64,000 nucleotides of DNA from Tistrella mobilis. GTDB taxonomy: Bacteria > Pseudomonadota > Alphaproteobacteria > Tistrellales > Tistrellaceae. The stretch lies in assembly GCF_041468085.1 (NCBI RefSeq), contig NZ_CP121017.1, positions 3,537,676 through 3,601,675 on the forward strand. The letters are read 5' to 3'. The number at the start of each line of letters is the position of its first letter. Position 1 is the first letter of the stretch. This document shows, piece by piece, positions 19,504 to 28,896 of the stretch. A model generated the notes under the pieces. The model was not told the origin of the DNA. It saw only the letters and a list, made by a program, of their open reading frames with translations, and made no database searches. A program made the position numbers and the translations under genes.

Positions 19504-20252
19504 GCCTCGTCCTCGCCCAGATAGGCCGCGATTACCCTGGGGTCGGCGCGGATGTCGTCGGGGCTGCCCGAGGCGATGGCATGGCCCGCCACCAGCACCG
19601 TCACCCGATCGGCCAGCGCGAACACCGCCTCCATGTCGTGTTCGACCATCAGGATGGTGGTCTCGTGCGCCAGCGCCCGGATCGTCGCGACCATGGCCGC
19701 ACTCTCATCGGGGCCGAGACCAGCCAGCGGCTCGTCGAGCAGCAGCAGGCGCGGTCGCTGCGCCACGGCCAGCGCGATTTCCAGCCGCCGCCGCTCCCCG
19801 TGGGAGAGCACCGCAGCCGGCCGGCGATCGGCGGGATCGAGCCCGAAACGCGCCAGCACCGCAGCGGCACGGTCCGCCAGATCCCGGTCCCGCGCCCGGG
19901 CGGCAAAGGGCCGCCAGACGGCGCGCGTCGGCGCCAGCAGCCCGACCTCGATGGTTTCCACCGCCGTCAGGCTGGGGAACAAAGCCACGATCTGATAGGC
20001 GCGCACCAGCCCGCGCCGGACGCGGGCGACCACGCCCAGGCCGCCGACATCACGGCCGTCGAAGCGGATCCGGCCGGCATCGGCCATGATCTCGCCCGAA
20101 ATCAGCGCGCAGGCCGTGGTCTTGCCGGCACCGTTGGGGCCGATCAGGGCATGGATCTGCCCGGGCATGACCTGAAGCGACAGGTCATCGGCGGCGGCCA
20201 GCGCCCCGAAGCGGCGGGTGACGCCGGCAAGTTCCAGCAGGGCCGCGGTCAT
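19500..20252 (-). CDS. livG: ABC transporter ATPase LivG
   Basis: A 250-residue ATPase starting MTAALLELAGVTRRFG. Walker A is GPNGAGKTT, the signature is LSHGERRRLEIALAV (Ser-His-Gly, as in many LivG) and Walker B is LLLLDEPLAG. The C-terminal EHDMEAVFALADRVTVL is typical. The ATG at 20250-20252 overlaps the livM stop; the longer frame belongs to livM. Confidence 0.92.
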
Positions 20253-21355
20253 CTCCGCCCCCTCCGCCGGATCCGGGCCCGGATCCGGGCCGCCGAGCCG
20301 GCAACCCCGCCCCGGTTGAAGATTGCCGCCAGCACCAGCATCGGCCCCAGGATCGCCGCCCAATGTTCGGTCCAGCGGCCGAGCATCTCTTCCAGCACCA
20401 CCATGATGGCGGCGCCGGCCACGGCACCGGCGGGCGTCGCCGCCCCGCCCAGCACCACCATCACCATCAGCTCGCCCGATGTCGTCCAGGCCAGCGGTGT
20501 CGGGCTCACGAAGCCGATCAGATTGGCGTTGAGCGCCCCCGCCACACCCGCCACCGCGGCTGCGGCGACGAAGGCTGCAAGCCTGAGGCCATAAGGGCTG
20601 CGGCCCAGCGCCCGAAGCCGGCGTTCGTCGTCGCGCGCCGCCGCCAGCACCAGCCCGTAACGGCTGCCCGACATGCGATGGGCGATGCCGAGCCAGAGGC
20701 CGAGCAGGGCGACGCAGATCCAGTGAAAGACGAGATCATCGCCGGTATCGAGGCCAAGCCCGCCGATGGCCGCGGTGTTGCGGCTCCACATCGACAGCCC
20801 GTCCTCGCCGCCGTAATCGGCGAAGGCGATGGTGACGAAATAGAGCATCTGCGAGAAGGCGAGCGTGATCATGATGAAATAGGCACCGCCGGTGCGCAGG
20901 CTGACCGCCCCGATCGGCAGCGCGATCAGCGCCGCCGCCAGCGCCGCCGCCGGCAGGGTGACCAGCAGGCTGTCCGAGCCGGCGCCGGCCAGGAAGCCCA
21001 GCGCCCCCTCCATGCCCTGGGCATGGTGGAAGGCGATGCCCACCGCATAGGCACCGATGCCGACGAAGGCGCCATGGCCGAGCGAGGGCAGGCCCGCACC
21101 GCCGATCAGCAATTGCAGGCTGGCGGCGGCCAGGCCCCAGATCGCGATCCGGGTGGTGAGCGATACCAGATACGAGGCGCCGGCCGCCTCGGCGAGGAGG
21201 GGCGCCACGGCCAGCAGTACCAGCAGGACGATCGCCGCGCGACCGCCGCGGCCGGGTGCGGCGATATGCATCGACGTCGATGCATCTGCACCACGGCCCC
21301 CGGCCGGATGCATCGATGTCGATGCAGTTTCAGGATGACGGTCAGTCCCGGCCAC
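20249..21355 (-). CDS. livM: ABC transporter permease LivM
   Basis: Up to 368 residues. The permease core (AAIVLLVLLAVAPLLAEAAG onward, eight or more helices, with LPSLGHGAFVGIGAYA and AVSLRTGGAYFIMITLAFSQ) is LivM-type. The GTG at 21355 overlaps livH; this start adds a 40-residue polar leader with a duplicated ASTSMH segment encoded by two palindromic repeats. The ATGs in these repeats (21313 or 21271) may be the true starts, which would make the leader non-coding. Confidence 0.85.
   Translation of the reverse strand: MAGTDRHPETASTSMHPAGGRGADASTSMHIAAPGRGGRAAIVLLVLLAVAPLLAEAAGASYLVSLTTRIAIWGLAAASLQLLIGGAGLPSLGHGAFVGIGAYAVGIAFHHAQGMEGALGFLAGAGSDSLLVTLPAAALAAALIALPIGAVSLRTGGAYFIMITLAFSQMLYFVTIAFADYGGEDGLSMWSRNTAAIGGLGLDTGDDLVFHWICVALLGLWLGIAHRMSGSRYGLVLAAARDDERRLRALGRSPYGLRLAAFVAAAAVAGVAGALNANLIGFVSPTPLAWTTSGELMVMVVLGGAATPAGAVAGAAIMVVLEEMLGRWTEHWAAILGPMLVLAAIFNRGGVAGSAARIRARIRRRGRR
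21267..21284. repeat. Perfect 18-base palindrome, copy 1
   Basis: TGCATCGACGTCGATGCA is its own reverse complement. With the near-identical copy at 21309-21326 it lies at the 5' end of livM, in the region where the start codon is uncertain. Each copy encodes Ala-Ser-Thr-Ser-Met-His if translated. Confidence 0.7.
21309..21326. repeat. 18-base near-palindrome, copy 2
   Basis: TGCATCGATGTCGATGCA differs from copy 1 at one position and lies 42 bases from it, that is four helical turns. The arrangement fits either a tandem operator or a small in-frame duplication. Confidence 0.65.
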
Positions 21356-22259
21356 CGAACACCCCCTTGGGACGGATGGCCAGCACCACCGCCATCAGCA
21401 GATAGATCGTCATCGATGCAAGTGCGGCCCCGATCTGGTCGGCCGCAGCCGGCGGCAGCAACTCGCGCGCGATCTGCGGCAGATAGGCCCGGCCCAGCGT
21501 GTCGGCGAGGCCGACGATGATGGCCCCGACGAAGGCGCCCTTCACCGAGCCGATGCCGCCGATCACGATCACCACGAAGGCCAGGATCAGCACCGGCTCG
21601 CCCATGCCGACCTGCACCGCCAGCACCGGCCCGGCCATGGCACCGGCAAGACCCGCGAGCAGCCCGCCCAGCGCGAAGAGCACGGCATAAAGCCGGCCGA
21701 TATCGACCCCCAATGCCGCCACCATCCGCCGGTTCTGGGCACCGGCACGGATCAGCATACCGAGGCGCGTGCGCTCGATCAGCAGAGCAAGGCCCCCCGC
21801 GACCACCAGCCCCGCCAGAATGATCGCCAGCCGCCAAGCCGGATAGGGCGTGCCGGGCAGCACCTCCACCGTGCCGGCAGCGAAGGCCGGCACGTCGAGG
21901 AACAGCGGCCGCGGCCCGAACAGGATCCGCACCATTTCATTGGCGAAGAGCACGATGCCGAAGGTGGCCAGCACCTGATCCAGATGATCGCGGGCATAAA
22001 GCCGGGCGATGACCAGCCGTTCGATGACGAAGCCGAGCAGGGCCGCCACCGGCAGCGCCGCCAGGATGCCGAGCGGCACCGAGCCGGTTTCGGCCGCGAC
22101 GAAGGCGGCGGCAAAGGCGCCGCACATATAGAGCGCGCCATGGGCAAGGTTGAGCACGCCCATCACGCCGAAGACCAGCGTCAGGCCGGCGGCGATCATG
22201 AACAGCATGACGCCGAGCTGCAGGCCATTCAGGACCTGCTCCAGGACAAGGGAAGACAT
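21342..22259 (-). CDS. livH: ABC transporter permease LivH
   Basis: A 305-residue permease starting MSSLVLEQVLNGLQLGVMLFMIAAGLTLVFGVMGVLNLAHGALYM, the diagnostic LivH N-terminus. The LVIGGIGSVKGAFVGAIIVGL cytoplasmic loop (here IVIGGIGSVKGAFVGA) couples to the ATPases. ATG 22257-22259 was preferred to a GTG six codons upstream. It follows livK after a strong hairpin. Confidence 0.92.
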   Translation of the reverse strand: MSSLVLEQVLNGLQLGVMLFMIAAGLTLVFGVMGVLNLAHGALYMCGAFAAAFVAAETGSVPLGILAALPVAALLGFVIERLVIARLYARDHLDQVLATFGIVLFANEMVRILFGPRPLFLDVPAFAAGTVEVLPGTPYPAWRLAIILAGLVVAGGLALLIERTRLGMLIRAGAQNRRMVAALGVDIGRLYAVLFALGGLLAGLAGAMAGPVLAVQVGMGEPVLILAFVVIVIGGIGSVKGAFVGAIIVGLADTLGRAYLPQIARELLPPAAADQIGAALASMTIYLLMAVVLAIRPKGVFGGRD

Positions 22260-22286
22260 GATCGGATGCGGGAACACCGCCGGCAG

Positions 22287-22325
22287 CCGTGGTGGGGACG
22301 GGGTCAGCCCCCGCCCCCACCACGG
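22287..22325 (-). terminator. Hairpin between livK and livH
   Basis: CCGTGGTGGGG pairs with CCCCACCACGG (11 bp), and an inner CGGGG/CCCCG stem extends it after a one-base mismatch. There is no T-run. In Liv operons such a structure between the binding-protein gene and the permeases often lowers downstream expression or protects the livK message; that role is inferred here. Confidence 0.6.
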
Positions 22326-22340
22326 CCGGCCGGTCCGGTA

Positions 22341-23528
22341 TCACATCTTGCAATCGGCCGCGTAGGCGTCGACGTGGTCGTCGAACACCTTCGAGACGAT
22401 GCGGTTCACCAGCCGGCCCTGATCGTCCTTCACCACCTCGCGGGCGTAGAGATCCTGGATCGGGTGCTGGTTGTTGCCGAAGCGGAATTCGCCGCGGACG
22501 CTGTCGAACTTCGCGGCCTTCATGCCGGCCCGCAGCCCGTCGCGATTGGCGACGTCGCCGCCCACCGCTTCCAGACCCGCGCCCATGATATGCGCCGCTT
22601 CATAGCCCTGCATGGCATAGACCGAGGGCAGCCGGCCATAGGCCTTCTCGAAGCCCGCCACGAAGGCCTTGTTGGCGGGGTTGTCGAGATCGGTCGACCA
22701 TTGCGCGCCGTTGATCACGCCCAGCGCCGCATCGCCCACCGCCGGCAGAACGTCCTGCGAGAACGAGAAGGCGGGGCCATAGAGCTTGATCTTGCCTTTG
22801 AGACCGGCCTGATCGAACTGCTTCACGAAGTTGATACCCATGCCGCCCGGCAGGAACACGAAGACGCCATCGGGTTCGGCAGCCCGGATGCTGGCGATTT
22901 CGGCGGCATAATCCAGCTGGCCCAGCTTGGTATAGACCTCCTGGACCACTTCGCCCTTGTAATAGCGCTTGAAGCCGGTCAGCGAATCCTTGCCCGCCGG
23001 ATAGTTGGGGGCCATCAGGAACATGCGCTTCAACCCGGCCTGCTCCACCGCGGCACCGGTCGCCTCGTGCAGATTGTCGTTCTGATAGGCGGCATTGAAG
23101 TAGTTCGGGCTGCAGCCGGCACCCGCCAGCTGCGAGGGGCCGGCATTGGAGCTGACATAGATCACGTCGTCGCGGGTGACCTTGGGCACCACGGCCAGCG
23201 CGAGATTGGAGAAGACGATGCCGGTCATCAGGCTGACGCCGTCTTCCTTGACCAGCCGGTCGGCCGCCTGCACGGCGGTTTCGGGCTTGCGGGCATCATC
23301 GACGGTCAGCACCTCCACCGGCACCCCGCCCAGCCTGCCGCCGGCCTCCGTCACCGCCAGCATGAAGCCGTCGCGGGTGTCGACACCCAGCCCGGCGCCG
23401 TCGCCGCTCAAAGTGGTGAGCAGGCCGATCTTCACCGGATCCGCCGCCTGAGCCGCGCCCAGACCGAAGCCCATCACGATACCCGTCGCCGCCGCGATCA
23501 TCCGCGAGGCCGCCTTGTTCGTCGTCAT
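22341..23528 (-). CDS. livK: Branched-chain amino acid-type substrate-binding protein
   Basis: A 395-residue precursor. A signal peptide (MTTNKAASRMIAAATGIVMGFGLGAAQA) is followed by ADPVKIGLLTTLSGDGAGLG, the type I periplasmic-binding fold of the LivK/AmiC group. Two Cys (GAGCSPNYF and the C-terminal DCKM) could form a disulfide. The ligand is not evident; aromatic or amide ligands are as likely as Leu/Ile/Val. First gene of livKHMGF. Confidence 0.9.
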   Translation of the reverse strand: MTTNKAASRMIAAATGIVMGFGLGAAQAADPVKIGLLTTLSGDGAGLGVDTRDGFMLAVTEAGGRLGGVPVEVLTVDDARKPETAVQAADRLVKEDGVSLMTGIVFSNLALAVVPKVTRDDVIYVSSNAGPSQLAGAGCSPNYFNAAYQNDNLHEATGAAVEQAGLKRMFLMAPNYPAGKDSLTGFKRYYKGEVVQEVYTKLGQLDYAAEIASIRAAEPDGVFVFLPGGMGINFVKQFDQAGLKGKIKLYGPAFSFSQDVLPAVGDAALGVINGAQWSTDLDNPANKAFVAGFEKAYGRLPSVYAMQGYEAAHIMGAGLEAVGGDVANRDGLRAGMKAAKFDSVRGEFRFGNNQHPIQDLYAREVVKDDQGRLVNRIVSKVFDDHVDAYAADCKM

Positions 23529-23619
23529 CTCCCGTCCCGTCCCTGCGAGGTGTGGCCAAGCCTTGCCCGGCAGCCCCGCGCTCCCCGCGGATCCGCCTGC
23601 CCGTTCCGGTGATCCGGAA

Positions 23620-23862
23620 TCAGGTGAAGGCCTTGAAGGTGATCATCGTGAAGGTGTCCTTGACGCCTGCAATGGCGTGGAGCTTCTCGTTCACGAAATG
23701 CCCGATATCGCGGCCCGGCGCCAGATAGCACTTCATCAGCAGGTCGTATTGACCCGAGATCGAATGCACCTCGGAAATCTCTTCGATCGTCGCCACCGCC
23801 TGATGGGCGACGTCATAGGCCTTGCCGAGTTCGCATTTGATAAGGACGAAGATGGTCTGCAT
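23620..23862 (-). CDS. Stand-alone Lrp/AsnC ligand-binding (RAM) domain protein
   Basis: An 80-residue protein without a helix-turn-helix. It matches only the C-terminal RAM domain of Lrp/AsnC regulators: MQTIFVLIKCELGKAYDVAHQAV, GQYDLLMKCYL and TFTMITFKAF. Such proteins bind amino acids and may modulate a full-length Lrp by mixed assembly. It lies 91 bases upstream of livK on the same strand and may be co-transcribed with it. Confidence 0.85.
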   Translation of the reverse strand: MQTIFVLIKCELGKAYDVAHQAVATIEEISEVHSISGQYDLLMKCYLAPGRDIGHFVNEKLHAIAGVKDTFTMITFKAFT

Positions 23863-24024
23863 GGGGCTCCGACCGGCATGAGATCAGGGAAAATGGGCCG
23901 GCGGCAGGGGCGCACACGGCCGTTTCGCCGACCGTACCCGGTTTTGGCCGCTTTGGGTAGCGGCAGCGCCCGCCACCCCTGCCCCGGGCAGGGATAAGAT
24001 CAGGGCCGGGACCGGAAACGACAA

Positions 24025-24053
24025 AAGCCGGCGACCGCAGACGGTGCCGGCTT
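24025..24053 (-). terminator. Terminator of tRNA-Leu(GAG)
   Basis: On the minus strand AAGCCGGC-ACCG, loop TCTG, CGGT-C-GCCGGCTT is followed by TTGT. This is a 12-bp interrupted stem with a short T-tract, 35 bases after the tRNA. Confidence 0.8.
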
Positions 24054-24087
24054 GATCCGATTTTCAGCTCCTCCGGATCCGGAAGAG

Positions 24088-24174
24088 TGGTGCGACCAGC
24101 AGGACTTGAACCTGCACGCCCTTTCGGGCACTAGCCCCTCAAGCTAGCGCGTCTACCAATTCCGCCATGGTCGC
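24088..24174 (-). tRNA. tRNA-Leu (anticodon GAG)
   Basis: An 87-base class II tRNA with encoded CCA. The acceptor stem is GCGACCA/TGGTCGC, the D-loop GAATTGGTAGACGCGC, the anticodon stem-loop CTAGC-TTGAGGG-GCTAG and the T-arm GCAGGTTCAAGTCCTGC. The variable arm GTGCCCGAAAGGGCG is typical of Leu. It reads CUC and CUU codons. Confidence 0.97.
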
Positions 24175-24195
24175 AGCGGTGTCGTGTGGTCCGTG

Positions 24196-24223
24196 GTTAT
24201 ACGCAAAACCGTCCCGGATGCAA
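24196..24223 (-). promoter_or_regulatory. Sigma70-type promoter of tRNA-Leu(GAG)
   Basis: TTGCAT, a 16-base spacer and TATAAC end about 22 bases before the tRNA 5' end. Confidence 0.6.
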
Positions 24224-24274
24224 GCATCGTCGTCAGAAAAACGACACAAGATCCGCCATTCCGGCCCTGCCAAC

Positions 24275-24299
24275 AAAAAACCCGCCGAACCGAGGCGGG
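24275..24299 (-). terminator. Terminator of tRNA-Leu(CAG)
   Basis: On the minus strand CCCGCC, a 7-base loop and GGCGGG are followed by six T. It lies 50 bases downstream of the second tRNA, before the promoter of the first. Confidence 0.85.
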
Positions 24300-24348
24300 C
24301 GTTTCGTTGACGATGACACTTCCCGATGGTCACCCTCCTTTTGGAGAG

Positions 24349-24435
24349 TGGTGCGACCGGTAGGACTTGAACCTACACGTCCGTACAGACACTAGTACCT
24401 GAAACTAGCGCGTCTACCAATTCCGCCACGGTCGC
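24349..24435 (-). tRNA. tRNA-Leu (anticodon CAG)
   Basis: An 87-base class II tRNA with encoded CCA. Acceptor GCGACCG/CGGTCGC, anticodon stem-loop CTAGT-TTCAGGT-ACTAG, T-arm GTAGGTTCAAGTCCTAC. It is strongly similar to the neighbouring tRNA-Leu in the D-arm and acceptor. It reads the CUG codon, which is the main Leu codon in this genome as seen in the genes here. Confidence 0.97.
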
Positions 24436-24459
24436 ATCGGGCGTCGTCGTCGTGGCGGT

Positions 24460-24489
24460 CTTATAGCCAATACTCCGGGAGGAGCGCAA
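24460..24489 (-). promoter_or_regulatory. Sigma70-type promoter of tRNA-Leu(CAG)
   Basis: TTGCGC, an 18-base spacer and TATAAG end 25 bases before the tRNA 5' end. Confidence 0.55.
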
Positions 24490-24658
24490 GAGGTCTTTTT
24501 CATGGGGACGCAACATTTCTGGAGTGCCCCGGGCTCGCCTGAATCCAAACCATTGACCTGTAATGAAAATGCCATATCCGCCCCCTCGAAAAAAAATGCG
24601 CGCGGCCCCCGCGCCCCTTCCGCACCCCCGTGCCGACCGCCGGTTTTTCCCGGAAACG
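24490..24658. other. Non-coding stretch between tRNA promoter and riboswitch promoter
   Basis: No gene is credible here. It includes a T-run at 24495-24499, an A-rich stretch at 24590-24597 and very GC-rich flanks. A second weak promoter-like pair (TTGACC at about 24553) points toward the riboswitch. Confidence 0.4.
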
Positions 24659-24687
24659 TTGACACCCGGGGCCCCCGCGGGTAATGC
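24659..24687 (+). promoter_or_regulatory. Sigma70-type promoter of the Mn riboswitch transcript
   Basis: A consensus -35 TTGACA, an exactly 17-base spacer and TAATGC. The expected transcription start (about 24694) falls just before the riboswitch P1 stem, which supports both calls. Confidence 0.75.
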
Positions 24688-24697
24688 TCAGCCCACT

Positions 24698-24847
24698 TCC
24701 GAGGGGGAGTAGCCGACCGCGACCGGGCAGACCTGCCCGGCAGGTACGGATCGTACGTCAACAGACTTGCCCGCCGGCCCTGTAAGCCGGCATCCGGCAT
24801 GGCGTACGAGCGACGGGGATCATCCCGGCGCCGGCGAGACCTTCGGA
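24698..24847 (+). promoter_or_regulatory. yybP-ykoY manganese riboswitch
   Basis: The 5' part holds GAGGGGGAGTAGCCGACC, the conserved GGGGAGUAG loop of the family; the middle holds CGTACGTCAACAGACTTG; and the 3' part holds GCGAGACCTT. P1 can form between TCCGAGG (24698-24704) and CCTTCGGA (24840-24847) with one bulge. In this class Mn2+ bridges the two internal loops and raises expression of Mn exporters. The gene that follows is a UPF0016 protein, the expected partner. Confidence 0.85.
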
Positions 24848-24981
24848 CGCGATCGCATCGACCGTCGACACCAGCGCGACGGGACGGCCGGACCGGCCGA
24901 TGCGTGTCGTGTCCGATCGTGCTCGCTGCTTGCGCGCCAGGAATGCAGGTCCGGCCGTCCACCCCGGAGGCAGATCACATC

Positions 24982-25560
24982 ATGGAAGCGCTCGCGGTCT
25001 CCACGCTCGTCGTGGCCCTGGCGGAAATCGGCGATAAGACACAGCTGCTGGCACTCGCGCTGACGCTGCGCTATCGCACCCCCTGGCCGGTGGCGGCCGG
25101 CATCCTGGTCGCAACGCTGGCCAACCACGCCGTGGCGGGCGCCGTAGGCGCGGCCGTCGCCGCCCATGTCGATCCGCAATGGATGCGCTGGATCCTGGGC
25201 GCCTCGTTCATCGCCATGGGCCTGTGGGTACTGGTGCCGGACAAGCTGGACGAGGATGAAGGCCCCCGCTCCACCGCCCGCGGCGCCTTCCTTGCCACGA
25301 CCCTCGCCTTCTTCGTGGTCGAGATCGGCGACAAGACCCAGGTCGCAACCGTGGCCCTTGCGGCCGATTACGCGCCGCTGATCGCCGTGGTCATCGGTAC
25401 GACCGCGGGCATGATGATCGCCAACCTGCCGGTCGTGTTCCTGGGCGACCGGATCACCCGGGTCATCCCGCTGAGCCTGGTCCGCAAGGCCGCCGCCACC
25501 CTGCTGATCGTTCTGGGCGTGCTCGCCCTGCTGGACGGCGGTGCGCTGCTGCACCTCTGA
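24982..25560 (+). CDS. UPF0016/GDT1 family manganese exporter
   Basis: A 192-residue protein with six helices and the two family signatures: EIGDKTQLLAL (near residue 12) and EIGDKTQVATVAL (near residue 115). These Glu-x-Gly-Asp sites bind the transported cation. Bacterial members (MneA type) export Mn2+; eukaryotic ones (TMEM165) move Ca2+/Mn2+. The manganese riboswitch in the leader supports Mn2+ export. ATG 24982 has GGAGG 13 bases upstream; the longer frame runs back through the riboswitch and is rejected. Confidence 0.93.
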   Translation: MEALAVSTLVVALAEIGDKTQLLALALTLRYRTPWPVAAGILVATLANHAVAGAVGAAVAAHVDPQWMRWILGASFIAMGLWVLVPDKLDEDEGPRSTARGAFLATTLAFFVVEIGDKTQVATVALAADYAPLIAVVIGTTAGMMIANLPVVFLGDRITRVIPLSLVRKAAATLLIVLGVLALLDGGALLHL

Positions 25561-25684
25561 CGGAAATGCAGGGCGGCCGTCCCGATCTTGCCACTTGAAC
25601 CGGCGTCGTCGGCGGTGAACATGTCAGGGCAAGACAGTTCTCTGCCATCCGGTGACGGCAGAGCCGGAACGGAGCCCGGGTGGC

Positions 25685-26908
25685 ATGGATGATGGCGGGG
25701 CAGGCAGATATGCGGCGGGTGTGGCGGCGGCATCGATCCCGCCCGCGGCACCGCGCCCCGCCATCGGTCTCAGGGATGCGACCCTTGCCGATATCGATGC
25801 GCTGGTGGCGATCGAGAACGCCTCGTTCATCCACGACCGGATCAGCCGCCGCAGTTTCCGCCACCTGCTGACCCGCGCCCATGCCGATACGGTGATCGCC
25901 GAAACCGCGGGCGCAGGCGGCCGGCCGGTGGTCGCGGGCTATGCCATGGTGCTCTACAACGCCGGCACCCGGCTTGCCCGGCTCTATTCCATCGCCACCG
26001 CCCCGGGCTGGCGCGGCGCCGGCATCGGCGGCCGGCTGCTCGCAGAGGTGGAGGCCCGGTCGCGGGCGGCCGAGGCCACCACCATCCGCCTGGAAGTCCG
26101 TGCCGACGCCCCCGATGTGGCGGCGATCTATGAACATGCCGGCTATCGCCGCTTCGGCCGCTATGTCGCCTATTACGAAGATGCGGTGGATGCCATCCGC
26201 ATGGAGAAGTCTCTGGCCCGGCGGCTGGATCCGTCGCGCGACCGCGTGCCCTATGTGGAGCAGAGCCTGCCCTTCACCTGCGGGCCGGCGGCGCTGATCA
26301 TGGCCATGCATGCGCTCGATCCCGAACGCGCCACCGGCCCCGAGGAGGAACTCAGGATCTGGCGCGAATCGACCACCATCTTCATGACCTCCGGCCATGG
26401 CGGCTGCTCGCCCCATGGCCTGGCGCTGGCGGCGGCCGCCCGCGGCTTCGGCGTCCGCCTGCATGTCACCGGCCAGGGCGTGCCCTTCGTCGACGGCGTG
26501 CGCAGCCCGGAAAAGAAGCGGGTGATCGAGATGGTCCAGGCCGAATTCGAGCGCGAGATCGCAGACGAACCGCTGATCGCCCTCGACGACCGCCCGGCCA
26601 CACTCGACGATATCGCCGCCGCCCTCGCGCGGGGCGAGATCCCGCTCCAGCTGGTCAGTTCCTGGCGCTTCGACCGGCAGAAGGCGCCGCATTGGGTGGT
26701 GGTGGTCGCGGTGGACGAGGCCTGCGTCCACATTCATGATCCCTTCGTCGACCGCGACGAAGGCCGCGCCCCCATCGACTGCATCCGCATTCCCGTCCCC
26801 CGCCGCGATTTCGAGCGCATGTCGCGCTACGGCCGCGCGGGCCTGCGTGCCACGCTGCTCATATCGTCCTCCCCCGTTCCGCCCGTCTCCCGAACCCCGG
26901 ATCCCTGA
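25685..26908 (+). CDS. GNAT acetyltransferase fused to peptidase C39-like domain
   Basis: A 407-residue two-domain protein. Residues about 28-175 form a GNAT N-acetyltransferase with an acetyl-CoA loop RGAGIGG at 110-116. Residues about 190-390 form a papain-like C39 domain with Cys199 in SLPFTCGPAA, His336 in APHWVVVV and Asp352 in HIHDPF. This fusion family is known to pair with RimK-type ATP-grasp genes, as here (4 bases apart). A role in making or trimming a small peptide is likely; the substrate is unknown. An in-frame GTG at 25652 is an alternative start. Confidence 0.85.
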   Translation: MDDGGAGRYAAGVAAASIPPAAPRPAIGLRDATLADIDALVAIENASFIHDRISRRSFRHLLTRAHADTVIAETAGAGGRPVVAGYAMVLYNAGTRLARLYSIATAPGWRGAGIGGRLLAEVEARSRAAEATTIRLEVRADAPDVAAIYEHAGYRRFGRYVAYYEDAVDAIRMEKSLARRLDPSRDRVPYVEQSLPFTCGPAALIMAMHALDPERATGPEEELRIWRESTTIFMTSGHGGCSPHGLALAAAARGFGVRLHVTGQGVPFVDGVRSPEKKRVIEMVQAEFEREIADEPLIALDDRPATLDDIAAALARGEIPLQLVSSWRFDRQKAPHWVVVVAVDEACVHIHDPFVDRDEGRAPIDCIRIPVPRRDFERMSRYGRAGLRATLLISSSPVPPVSRTPDP

Positions 26909-26912
26909 ACCA

Positions 26913-28418
26913 ATGCACCGGCATATCGTCATCGTCGACCGCCCCGAAGATCGGGCATCGGTACCTGCCGCCACGGGCCGCGTGGTGCTGACGGCGCGCG
27001 AATTCGTCGAGGCGCCGCCGCCGGAGAAGTCCGGCGCAAAGGTGGTGAACCTGGTGCGGGATCATCACTATCTCTCGCTCGGCTACTATGCCTCGCTGCT
27101 GGCGGAAGGCCGGGGCGACAGGGTCATCCCCACCCCGCATGCCCTGACCGAGATTTCCTCGAAGCGCATCTATGCCCATGCCCTGCCCGAGCTGACCGCG
27201 ATCGCCCGGCGCCATCTGCTGGCGCCGCTGGCCGGCGGTGCGGTCACCCGCACGGTGACGGTCATCTTCGGCGAGACCTGCGAGGCCGAGACCGCGGCGC
27301 TGGGGCGGCGGGCCTTCGAACTGTTCCGCCTGCCACTGATGGCGCTGCACCTGACCTATGGCGCATCGGAACCGGCCGCCGGCGGGCGGCTGGGCTGGAC
27401 GGTACGTTCCATGCGCAGCCGCAGCCTGCGCGGGCTGGATGCAGCCGAACGCCACCGGTTCGAAACCGCGCTGGAGCGCTTCACCTCGGACCGCTGGCGG
27501 GATCCGAAGCCGCGGCCCGGCAGCCGCTACAGCCTTGCCATCCTGCACGATCCCGACGACCCGCTGCCGCCGTCGAATCCCAAGGCGCTGGAACGGTTCC
27601 GCAGGATCGGCCGGAGCCTGGGCATGGAGGTGGAGCTGATCACCCGGCGCGACTATCCACGGCTGGCGGAATACGACGCGCTGTTCATCCGCGAGACCAC
27701 CCGGATCGATCACCACACCTTCCGCTTCGCAACCAGGGCCGCGCAGGAGGGCATGCCGGTGATCGACGACCCGCAGTCGATCGTCCGCTGCACCAACAAG
27801 ATCTATCTGGCCGAACTGCTGCGCACCCATAATCTGCCGGCGCCGCGCACCATGATCCTGCACCGCGACCGGCTGCTGGAGGCCGAAACGCTGGGCTATC
27901 CGGTGGTGCTGAAGATCCCGGACGGCGCCTTTTCGAACGGGGTCTTCAAGGCCGAGAACCGCGAGCAGCTCGTGGCCCTGGGCGCCCGGGTCTTCGCCCG
28001 CAGCGAGCTGGCGCTGGCCCAGTCCTTCGTCTACACCGCCTTCGACTGGCGGGTCGGCATCCTGAACCGGCAGCCGATCTATGCCTGCCAGTATTTCATG
28101 TCGCGCAACCACTGGCAGATCGTGAAACATGGCGGCGACGGCCGCATCGACGAGGGCCGCTTCCGCACCTTCGGAGTCGACGAGGCCCCGGCCGACGTGA
28201 TCGATGTCGCCCTGCGCGCCGCCGCCCCGATCGGCGACGGCCTCTATGGTGTCGACCTGAAGCAGAACGCCGAAGGCGTGTTCGTGATCGAGGTCAACGA
28301 CAACCCCAATATCGATGCCGGGGTCGAGGATGCGGTGCTGAAGGACGAGCTGTACCGCATCGTGCTGAAGGAGTTCATCCGGCGGATCGATGCCGCCCGG
28401 GCGGGCACTGCGGCGTAA
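26913..28418 (+). CDS. RimK-type ATP-grasp ligase with N-terminal RLAN domain
   Basis: A 501-residue protein. Residues 1-190 resemble the RLAN (RimK-like ATP-grasp N-terminal) domain; residues about 205-490 are an ATP-grasp fold with the ATP-binding Lys in VVLKIPDGAFSNGVFK (333-346) and the Mg ligands in VIEVNDNPNIDAG (near 460). RimK relatives form amide bonds between a carboxylate and an amino group. It starts 4 bases after the GNAT-C39 gene, so the two are an operon. The longer frame upstream overlaps that gene and is rejected. Confidence 0.88.
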   Translation: MHRHIVIVDRPEDRASVPAATGRVVLTAREFVEAPPPEKSGAKVVNLVRDHHYLSLGYYASLLAEGRGDRVIPTPHALTEISSKRIYAHALPELTAIARRHLLAPLAGGAVTRTVTVIFGETCEAETAALGRRAFELFRLPLMALHLTYGASEPAAGGRLGWTVRSMRSRSLRGLDAAERHRFETALERFTSDRWRDPKPRPGSRYSLAILHDPDDPLPPSNPKALERFRRIGRSLGMEVELITRRDYPRLAEYDALFIRETTRIDHHTFRFATRAAQEGMPVIDDPQSIVRCTNKIYLAELLRTHNLPAPRTMILHRDRLLEAETLGYPVVLKIPDGAFSNGVFKAENREQLVALGARVFARSELALAQSFVYTAFDWRVGILNRQPIYACQYFMSRNHWQIVKHGGDGRIDEGRFRTFGVDEAPADVIDVALRAAAPIGDGLYGVDLKQNAEGVFVIEVNDNPNIDAGVEDAVLKDELYRIVLKEFIRRIDAARAGTAA

Positions 28419-28461
28419 TGTCGCAGATCTGAGAGACGCCGCGCATCCCTACACTGCGCCG

Positions 28462-28896
28462 ATGACGGGGCATCGGCGGCGAACCGCACACCAAGGCAGG
28501 CATGATCGACGGCCGGCGCGGCAGGTTCTGCGGCGCCTGGCCGGTTGGCTTGCGCTTGCAGCCCTGCTGGTGACCCAGCCGGCCATGCTGGCCGGCATGA
28601 CCATGGCGGAGGCCGGCCAGGCGGTGGCACGTGCCGCCGGCCTGCCCGACGGCTTGTTCGATCCGGCCTCCATCTGCCATGTGCCCGATGCCTACGGCGA
28701 TCCGGCCGACCCCGCCCGGGACGATGCCGCGGGCCATCATTGCGCGCTCTGCACCGCCGTTACCCCGGCCCCGTCGCCATGGGTGCCGCAGCCCGCAAAG
28801 GCATGCGGCCGTGCCGCCAGGACAGCCCGCCCCGCCAGCCGTCACCGGCCGGCCCGCCGCCGGCGCCGCCGTCCGCGTGCGCCCCCTGCCCCCTGA
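28462..28896 (+). CDS. DUF2946-like small protein, possible copper-responsive upstream ORF
   Basis: A 144-residue protein with an Arg-rich start, one hydrophobic segment (residues 26-42), a His-His-Cys-Ala-Leu-Cys motif at 92-97, then a Pro-rich part and an Arg-rich C-terminus with six Arg in a row. The Cys motif and layout are those of DUF2946. It ends 42 bases before a TonB receptor. DUF2946 proteins (CruR in Bordetella) are described as copper-sensing upstream ORFs that control TonB receptor genes; the same use here is inferred. Confidence 0.65.
   Translation: MTGHRRRTAHQGRHDRRPARQVLRRLAGWLALAALLVTQPAMLAGMTMAEAGQAVARAAGLPDGLFDPASICHVPDAYGDPADPARDDAAGHHCALCTAVTPAPSPWVPQPAKACGRAARTARPASRHRPARRRRRRPRAPPAP

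Follow-up and report, generated by a model that had tools for sequence, protein, structure and literature searches.

A GNAT-DUF3335 fusion beside an RLAN-RimK-type ligase in Tistrella mobilis: a candidate amidoligase pair with a near-constant acetyltransferase-ligase core

What could a bacterium make, or modify, with an acetyltransferase, a papain-like cysteine domain and an ATP-grasp ligase encoded in just two adjoining genes? The question is raised by a locus of Tistrella mobilis, analysed here within its window, the whole stretch of 64,000 nucleotides in which it lies (NZ_CP121017.1, positions 3,537,676 to 3,601,675). The 2009 amidoligase survey of Iyer et al. reportedly covers GNAT-DUF3335 fusions and RLAN ligases. 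The original prediction, a fusion of a GNAT with a cysteine domain followed after four bases by a RimK-type ligase, is confirmed by the ORF coordinates and by Pfam (Table 1). The longest ORFs begin further 5' (GTG at 25652 for gene 1, ATG at 26736 for gene 2); 25685 and 26913 are the likely starts.

Table 1. The gene pair and its domains, in window positions.
Feature	Position	Strand	Basis
Gene 1, GNAT-DUF3335 fusion, 407 aa	25685..26908	+	ATG at 25685 (likely start); stop ends 26908; profile matches
GNAT domain, about residues 26-182 of protein 1	25760..26230	+	profile match, structure search
DUF3335 domain (papain-like, C39-like), about residues 185-397 of protein 1; Gln193, Cys199, His336, Asp352	26237..26875	+	profile match, alignment
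Spacer, four bases, from the stop of gene 1 to the ATG of gene 2	26909..26912	+	ORF coordinates
Gene 2, RLAN + RimK-type ATP-grasp ligase, 501 aa	26913..28418	+	ATG at 26913 (likely start); stop ends 28418; profile matches
RLAN domain, residues 29-185 of protein 2	26997..27467	+	profile match
RimK/LysX-like ATP-grasp part, about residues 205-496 of protein 2	27525..28400	+	profile match, structure search

By its profile matches, the cysteine domain of protein 1 is DUF3335 and not Peptidase_C39 proper: PF11814 (DUF3335) is matched with 279.9 bits (E 1.4e-83, cut-off 25), whereas Peptidase_C39 (PF03412, 11.9 bits against 22) and Peptidase_C39_2 (PF13529, 20 bits against 24) stay below their cut-offs. 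The models proposed at the outset for RLAN, ATP-grasp and GNAT are thus all matched, but the C39 models are not, and the label "C39" survives in the sense of a papain-like, C39-like domain while its hint of a leader peptidase is lost. The catalytic residues Cys199, His336 and Asp352 stand at precisely the numbers first given. Across 79 aligned fused homologues, C199, H336 and Gln193, which we take to be the oxyanion residue, are each found in 79/79, and position 352 holds Asp in 74 and Glu in 5. The acetyl-CoA motif, which reads R110-G-A-G-I-G-G in protein 1, is looser in the fused forms (R110 in 72/79, G113 in 71/79) than in lone GNATs (33/33 and 32/33), suggesting that a few fused GNATs may be altered.

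The GNAT part matches Acetyltransf_1 (E 1.7e-9) and falls below the cut-off of the RimI equivalog TIGR01575 (57 bits against 86.4). In a search with the predicted GNAT-C39 model (mean pLDDT 90.2, pTM 0.86), the top structure match is Ard1 (4pv6, VIA Z 23.3, rmsd 1.3, 147 aligned), followed by RimI (5isv, Z 22.7), other Ard1 entries, Naa10 and NatC catalytic chains; the lists are filled by GNAT chains, and this ranking concerns the GNAT part alone. The GNAT profile also aligns with archaeal Ard1 across the YYxDG(E)DA stretch. By its nearest predicted fold and its acceptor-side sequence, the domain therefore resembles the protein N-terminal acetyltransferases of the Ard1 and RimI type.

Protein 2 matches RLAN (PF14401, 111 bits, E 5.2e-32, cut-off 25) and RimK (PF08443, 29 bits, E 9.5e-7, cut-off 21), and lies below the cut-offs of both the RimK glutamate ligase (TIGR00768, 70.3 bits against 143.4) and LysX (TIGR02144, 69.5 bits against 275.6); matches of the two proteins to further NCBIfam equivalogs are likewise below cut-off. 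The lysine and NDNPN residues that had been singled out are present and invariant: K334, E460, N462, D463, N464 and P465 are kept in 18/18 and 39/39 sequences of two alignments, and D448 is likewise invariant in the aligned sequences. The predicted ligase model (pLDDT 88.5, pTM 0.63) is matched by LysX (Z 27.9), LysX/ArgX (27.3), ArgX (27.3) and RimK (26.3), the first three being ties by the rule of the tool, and by D-Ala ligases at Z 23.9; the list concerns the ATP-grasp part, not RLAN's own fold. The modelled ligase thus most resembles LysX, ArgX and RimK.

A profile search of the host genome (6.3 Mb, 4 contigs) found one copy each of RLAN and DUF3335. Protein 1 shares 96.4% identity with a protein from the Tistrella mobilis plasmid pTM3, the DNA block carrying the gene pair is 92.4% identical to that plasmid, and dN/dS in the same comparison is 0.093 for gene 1 (369 codons) and 0.089 for gene 2 (500 codons). 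In the window, the pair is preceded by a GDT1-type cation antiporter gene and followed by DUF2946 and TonB-receptor genes; genes of the branched-chain amino-acid transporter type lie farther off, on the opposite strand. An Rfam search of the window returned two tRNAs and nothing else. As first stated, there is no transporter gene inside the pair's own transcription unit, and a rough small-ORF scan showed no precursor-like ORF near the loci that is shared across families.

The partners stay together well beyond this locus. Our main sample comprised 299 genomes of the phylum with 63 RLAN places, all 63 of which were read for neighbours. RLAN occurs in 60 of these genomes, DUF3335 in 51 and both in 50, a co-occurrence with a hypergeometric probability of 1.4e-45 if kinship is ignored, and of 5.8e-24 when counted by genus (27/28), with no phylogenetic correction beyond genus. 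Chance adjacency is ruled out by these statistics, genome-wise and genus-wise. Co-location, on which the original prediction had staked its case, is seen at 48 of the 54 DUF3335 places, which adjoin RLAN; gene order among the 48 is as in the window in 27, divergent in 16, reversed in 4 and convergent in 1. That the same partners recur in several gene orders argues for a functional link rather than for the shared ancestry of one locus. (Intergenic distances were measured between longest ORFs and may come out too short.) A second set of 80 named loci, the best 80 of 579 confirmed matches, includes 26 with Pseudomonas titles, and among the matches listed are fused proteins from metagenome-assembled genomes labelled Bacteroidetes, Spirochaetes, Sulfuricurvum and Bacteriovoracaceae.

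The three activities are not equally constant, however. In the phylum sample, 62 of the 63 RLAN ligases have an adjacent GNAT (the single exception is in G169): in 48 it belongs to a GNAT-DUF3335 gene, two of these with an extra GNAT, and in 14 it is a lone GNAT. Ten of the 60 RLAN genomes lack DUF3335 anywhere, and their ligases keep the lone GNAT neighbour; in one genome (G205, locus L086) the ligase even carries a GNAT as an N-terminal fusion, as supported by Pfam. Overall, 136 of 143 ligases have a GNAT within the stretch read, four of the GNATs lying more than 300 bases off. The seven ligases lacking one there are L072, L109, L119, L138, L168, L172 and L176, and L138, L172 and L176 are near contig ends. 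A Methylobacterium bullatum plasmid (locus L183) carries the same GNAT with no ligase detected by an HMM check in 8.4 kb. In a tree of 116 ligases built by a quick method, in which 37 of 113 inner branches are open, the 107 labelled rows call for no fewer than 12 changes between fused and lone GNATs, 8-9 of which are forced by the well-supported (starred) branches. In particular, the C39-like domain is missing from the Pseudomonas loci L130 and L142 but present in their close relative L132: in L130 and L142 the GNAT gene stops where the C39-like part of L132 starts, and no remnant was found in three frames of that strand. Together, the lone GNAT partners, the repeated switches and the absence from L130 and L142 suggest that GNAT and ligase form a near-constant core to which the C39-like domain is an optional extra. 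Three activities in two genes is thus an accurate description, three equal partners is not. In two genomes (G006 and G294) the ligase has a lone GNAT of its own, yet the GNAT-C39 protein retains its GNAT, so that the fused GNAT may there serve something else.

What the optional domain might do is hinted at by DUF3335 proteins that live apart from RLAN, five loci of which were read for neighbours. On S. meliloti pSINME02, DUF3335 is the last gene of an oligopeptide ABC operon (SBP_bac_5/oligo_HPY), beside phosphonate genes; on Microvirga pMVF16-1 it stands between an oligopeptide transporter of the same kind and phnG, phnH, phnI and phnJ; and G172 has two copies, one on either side of an oligopeptide transporter and a gene for an AstE/AspA-like deacylase. 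The other two loci are not next to peptide transport: in one (G008, L089) the genes on either side of DUF3335 encode a 2-oxoacid dehydrogenase acyltransferase and a protein resembling dihydrolipoamide dehydrogenase, in the other it is (G223, L088) close to DUF347 and amidohydrolase genes. Oligopeptide transporters next to DUF3335 in 3/5 loci hint at hydrolysis and lend slight support to a hydrolase. Of the two activities first offered, cysteine protease or transpeptidase, hydrolysis or recycling is accordingly a little likelier. A further neighbour is DUF2817, presumably M14-like, which occurs within 5 kb of RLAN or DUF3335 at 14 of 54 full-length places, 12 of them in one family, and in loci L114, L117 and L179; in G006 the GNAT-C39 gene is grouped with DUF2817 and DUF155, apart from the ligase.

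We favour, at a probability of about one half, a cytosolic two-gene amidoligase unit yielding an N-acetylated, amide-linked peptide, either free or on the end of a protein, which the C39-like domain would trim or recycle. Based on its fold and conserved residues, the ligase would turn the carboxylate of a peptide or amino acid into an acyl phosphate and, in the manner of LysX, ArgX and RimK, couple this to an amino-acid amine. The GNAT, being of the N-terminal-acetyltransferase type, would acetylate the free alpha-amine of the peptide, and the Cys199-His336-Asp352 triad of DUF3335 could then break a peptide or amide bond by hydrolysis, so that the product or its precursor is trimmed or recycled.

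Two narrower readings overlap with this unit as special cases, and the figures given to the several readings do not sum to one. It is possible, if tentative, that the substrate is a protein: the ligase would add amino acids to its C-terminus, the GNAT would acetylate its N-terminus and the C39-like domain would remove or expose the tail, much like a RimK/RimI pair with a target of its own. The closest folds do act on protein ends (Ard1, RimI and Naa10; LysX and ArgX on LysW; RimK on S6), RimK is opposed by the protease RimB in the same writer-eraser logic (PMC12239564, in the portion available to us), and at 13 of 34 places RLAN or DUF3335 has DUF155 (RMND1 family) no more than 5 kb away. However, 10 of these 13 belong to one family (f33), the Tistrella genome has neither DUF155 nor DUF2817, no target protein gene accompanies the pair, and the Z scores of LysX, ArgX and RimK are only a few units above those of the small-molecule D-Ala ligases. 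Slightly more doubtful is a free small solute such as N-acetylglutaminylglutamine amide (NAGGN), in which GNAT and ATP-grasp ligase would make an N-acetyl dipeptide that the peptidase recycles. Ngg carries out both the acetylation of one glutamine and its joining to another, and its P. aeruginosa operon has an aminopeptidase gene, according to the accessible part of PMC8070244; the GNAT-ligase fusion of G205 would suit such a product, as would the failure of the rough scan to find a shared precursor gene. Yet neither protein matches TIGR03103 at E 0.01, no amidotransferase gene adjoins the pair in the window, and the genome has a separate TIGR03103 enzyme elsewhere (867 bits), so that synthesis of NAGGN by the pair itself is rejected and the solute would need to be another.

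Alternatively, DUF3335 might not be a hydrolase at all but might complete the product by acyl transfer or transpeptidation, like BtrH and phytochelatin synthase, which we consider unlikely. The DUF3335 profile has only weak matches among PDB sequences, a BtrH_N chain (9quz, E 0.013) scoring about the same as the best, a C39 chain (6mpz, E 0.012), and the portion of PMC10318531 at hand places DUF3335 near Guanylate_cyc_2 and within one broad cluster that also holds BtrH_N and phytochelatin synthase; but the transporter-linked DUF3335 proteins point to breakdown of imported peptides, and a finishing enzyme would hardly be expected to be dispensable. We hold it still less probable that the pair cuts and caps: DUF3335 would cleave a protein or peptide, the fused GNAT would acetylate the new N-terminus and the ligase would extend the C-terminal side. 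This has a parallel in ACTMAP, a papain-like protease with a bacterial-like fold that acts before the N-terminal acetyltransferase NAA80 in actin maturation (PMC13367750, text available in part), and C19orf54 and DUF3335 both fall in papain-like cluster I in the section of PMC10318531 available. If true, the fusion would be a one-chain bacterial counterpart of ACTMAP and NAA80, tied to a RimK-like ligase. Hardly credible, and already disfavoured, is the idea of a RiPP cluster with the C39-like domain as its leader peptidase. The likeness is one of name, the C39 family proper being the one that cuts double-glycine leaders (PMC10318531, same portion), and it is countered by the PF03412 score given above and by the lack of an ABC exporter within the pair. 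The rough scan for small shared ORFs (18-75 aa, up to 1.5 kb from the loci) yielded sets confined to near relatives and none across distant groups, and in the largest set 6 of 7 members checked lie inside a longer ORF.

Proteins of this kind are widespread in the phylum, as the DUF3335 (51/299) and RLAN (60/299) counts indicate. A near-constant GNAT-ligase core, and a C39-like domain that differs among close Pseudomonas, give their bare annotation a form that can be put to experiment. The open-licence literature that we searched held no product of these proteins and no experimental study of the pair; nor, as far as its available text extends, did it mention the optional C39-like domain, the GNAT-ligase fusion or the transporter-linked DUF3335.

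The pair itself is of an already published kind: DUF3335-GNAT fusions appear in the available portion of PMC10318531, which cites Iyer et al. (2009), and by that route and by Pfam names the domain families of the amidoligase survey, and the fusion, are the same as here. With RimK-RimB (S6 glutamylation) and Pseudomonas RloABC the pair shares a RimK-type ATP-grasp ligase and an opposing peptidase, but its peptidase is papain-like and not a retropepsin, its ligase carries an RLAN domain and an acetyltransferase is added. A retropepsin partner as in RimK-RimB was rejected (0 PF05618 matches in the Tistrella genome), and a recurrent neighbour of 150-249 aa in 13 loci, considered as a retropepsin, proved to be the lone GNAT. 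NAGGN synthesis (Ngg/AsnO with an aminopeptidase) likewise combines acetyl transfer, ATP-grasp ligation and a peptidase gene in the operon, whereas the pair has neither a TIGR03103 match nor an AsnO-like neighbour, in a genome that keeps its own NAGGN enzyme. RimI and Ard1/Naa10 share with our GNAT the fold (Z 22-23) and the YYxDG(E)DA stretch; in contrast, the GNAT here is below the RimI cut-off, ligase-adjacent and often fused to DUF3335. LysX/ArgX, which work with the LysW carrier, are the closest solved structures to a ligase that is itself below the LysX cut-off. ACTMAP and NAA80, likened here by description, also join a papain-like protease with an N-terminal acetyltransferase, but they are eukaryotic, two separate proteins, and have actin as their target.

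The entire region around the pair (window 19747-28618) is also present in T. mobilis plasmid pTM3 (L182), lying there on a 1.13 Mb plasmid versus a 4.9 Mb contig in the window's own genome (G000). The window's two tRNA genes, 261 bases apart, have almost equal scores.

Features at the window, in its genome and at loci read for comparison (L numbers; G, surveyed genomes)
Feature	Location	Replicon, genome or detail
Two tRNA genes	window 24091-24174, 24352-24435	- strand
Separate N-acetylglutaminylglutamine amide (NAGGN) synthetase	C4 788906-790537	G000; TIGR03103, 867 bits
GNAT-RLAN/ATP-grasp ligase, direct fusion	L086 7553-9532	G205
Consecutive GNAT-DUF3335, DUF2817 and DUF155 (RMND1 family) genes	L090 6508-9809	G006
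Two DUF3335 proteins	L087 4633-5694, 13689-14897	G172 contig 15
DUF3335 protein without GNAT	L188 8938-9606	S. meliloti AK83 pSINME02
DUF3335 protein without GNAT	L189 8956-9654	Microvirga pMVF16-1

The arrangement of ligase, GNAT and DUF3335 genes varies: in G205, a separate GNAT-DUF3335 gene is convergent with the GNAT-ligase fusion gene; in G006, the ligase and its lone GNAT lie about 2.1 Mb from the consecutive genes; and three genomes carry two RLAN ligases each, one adjoining GNAT-DUF3335 and the other a lone GNAT (G058, L092/L093; G062, L216/L190; G139, L215/L191).

Some DUF3335 proteins accompany transporters. In G172 one lies on each side of a stretch with an oligopeptide transporter and a gene for an AstE/AspA-like deacylase. 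At L188 and L189 the GNAT-less form is the last gene of an oligopeptide-type ABC operon adjoining phosphonate genes (phnG-J in Microvirga), a gene order that reads as if phosphonopeptides were imported, then cut, before C-P cleavage.
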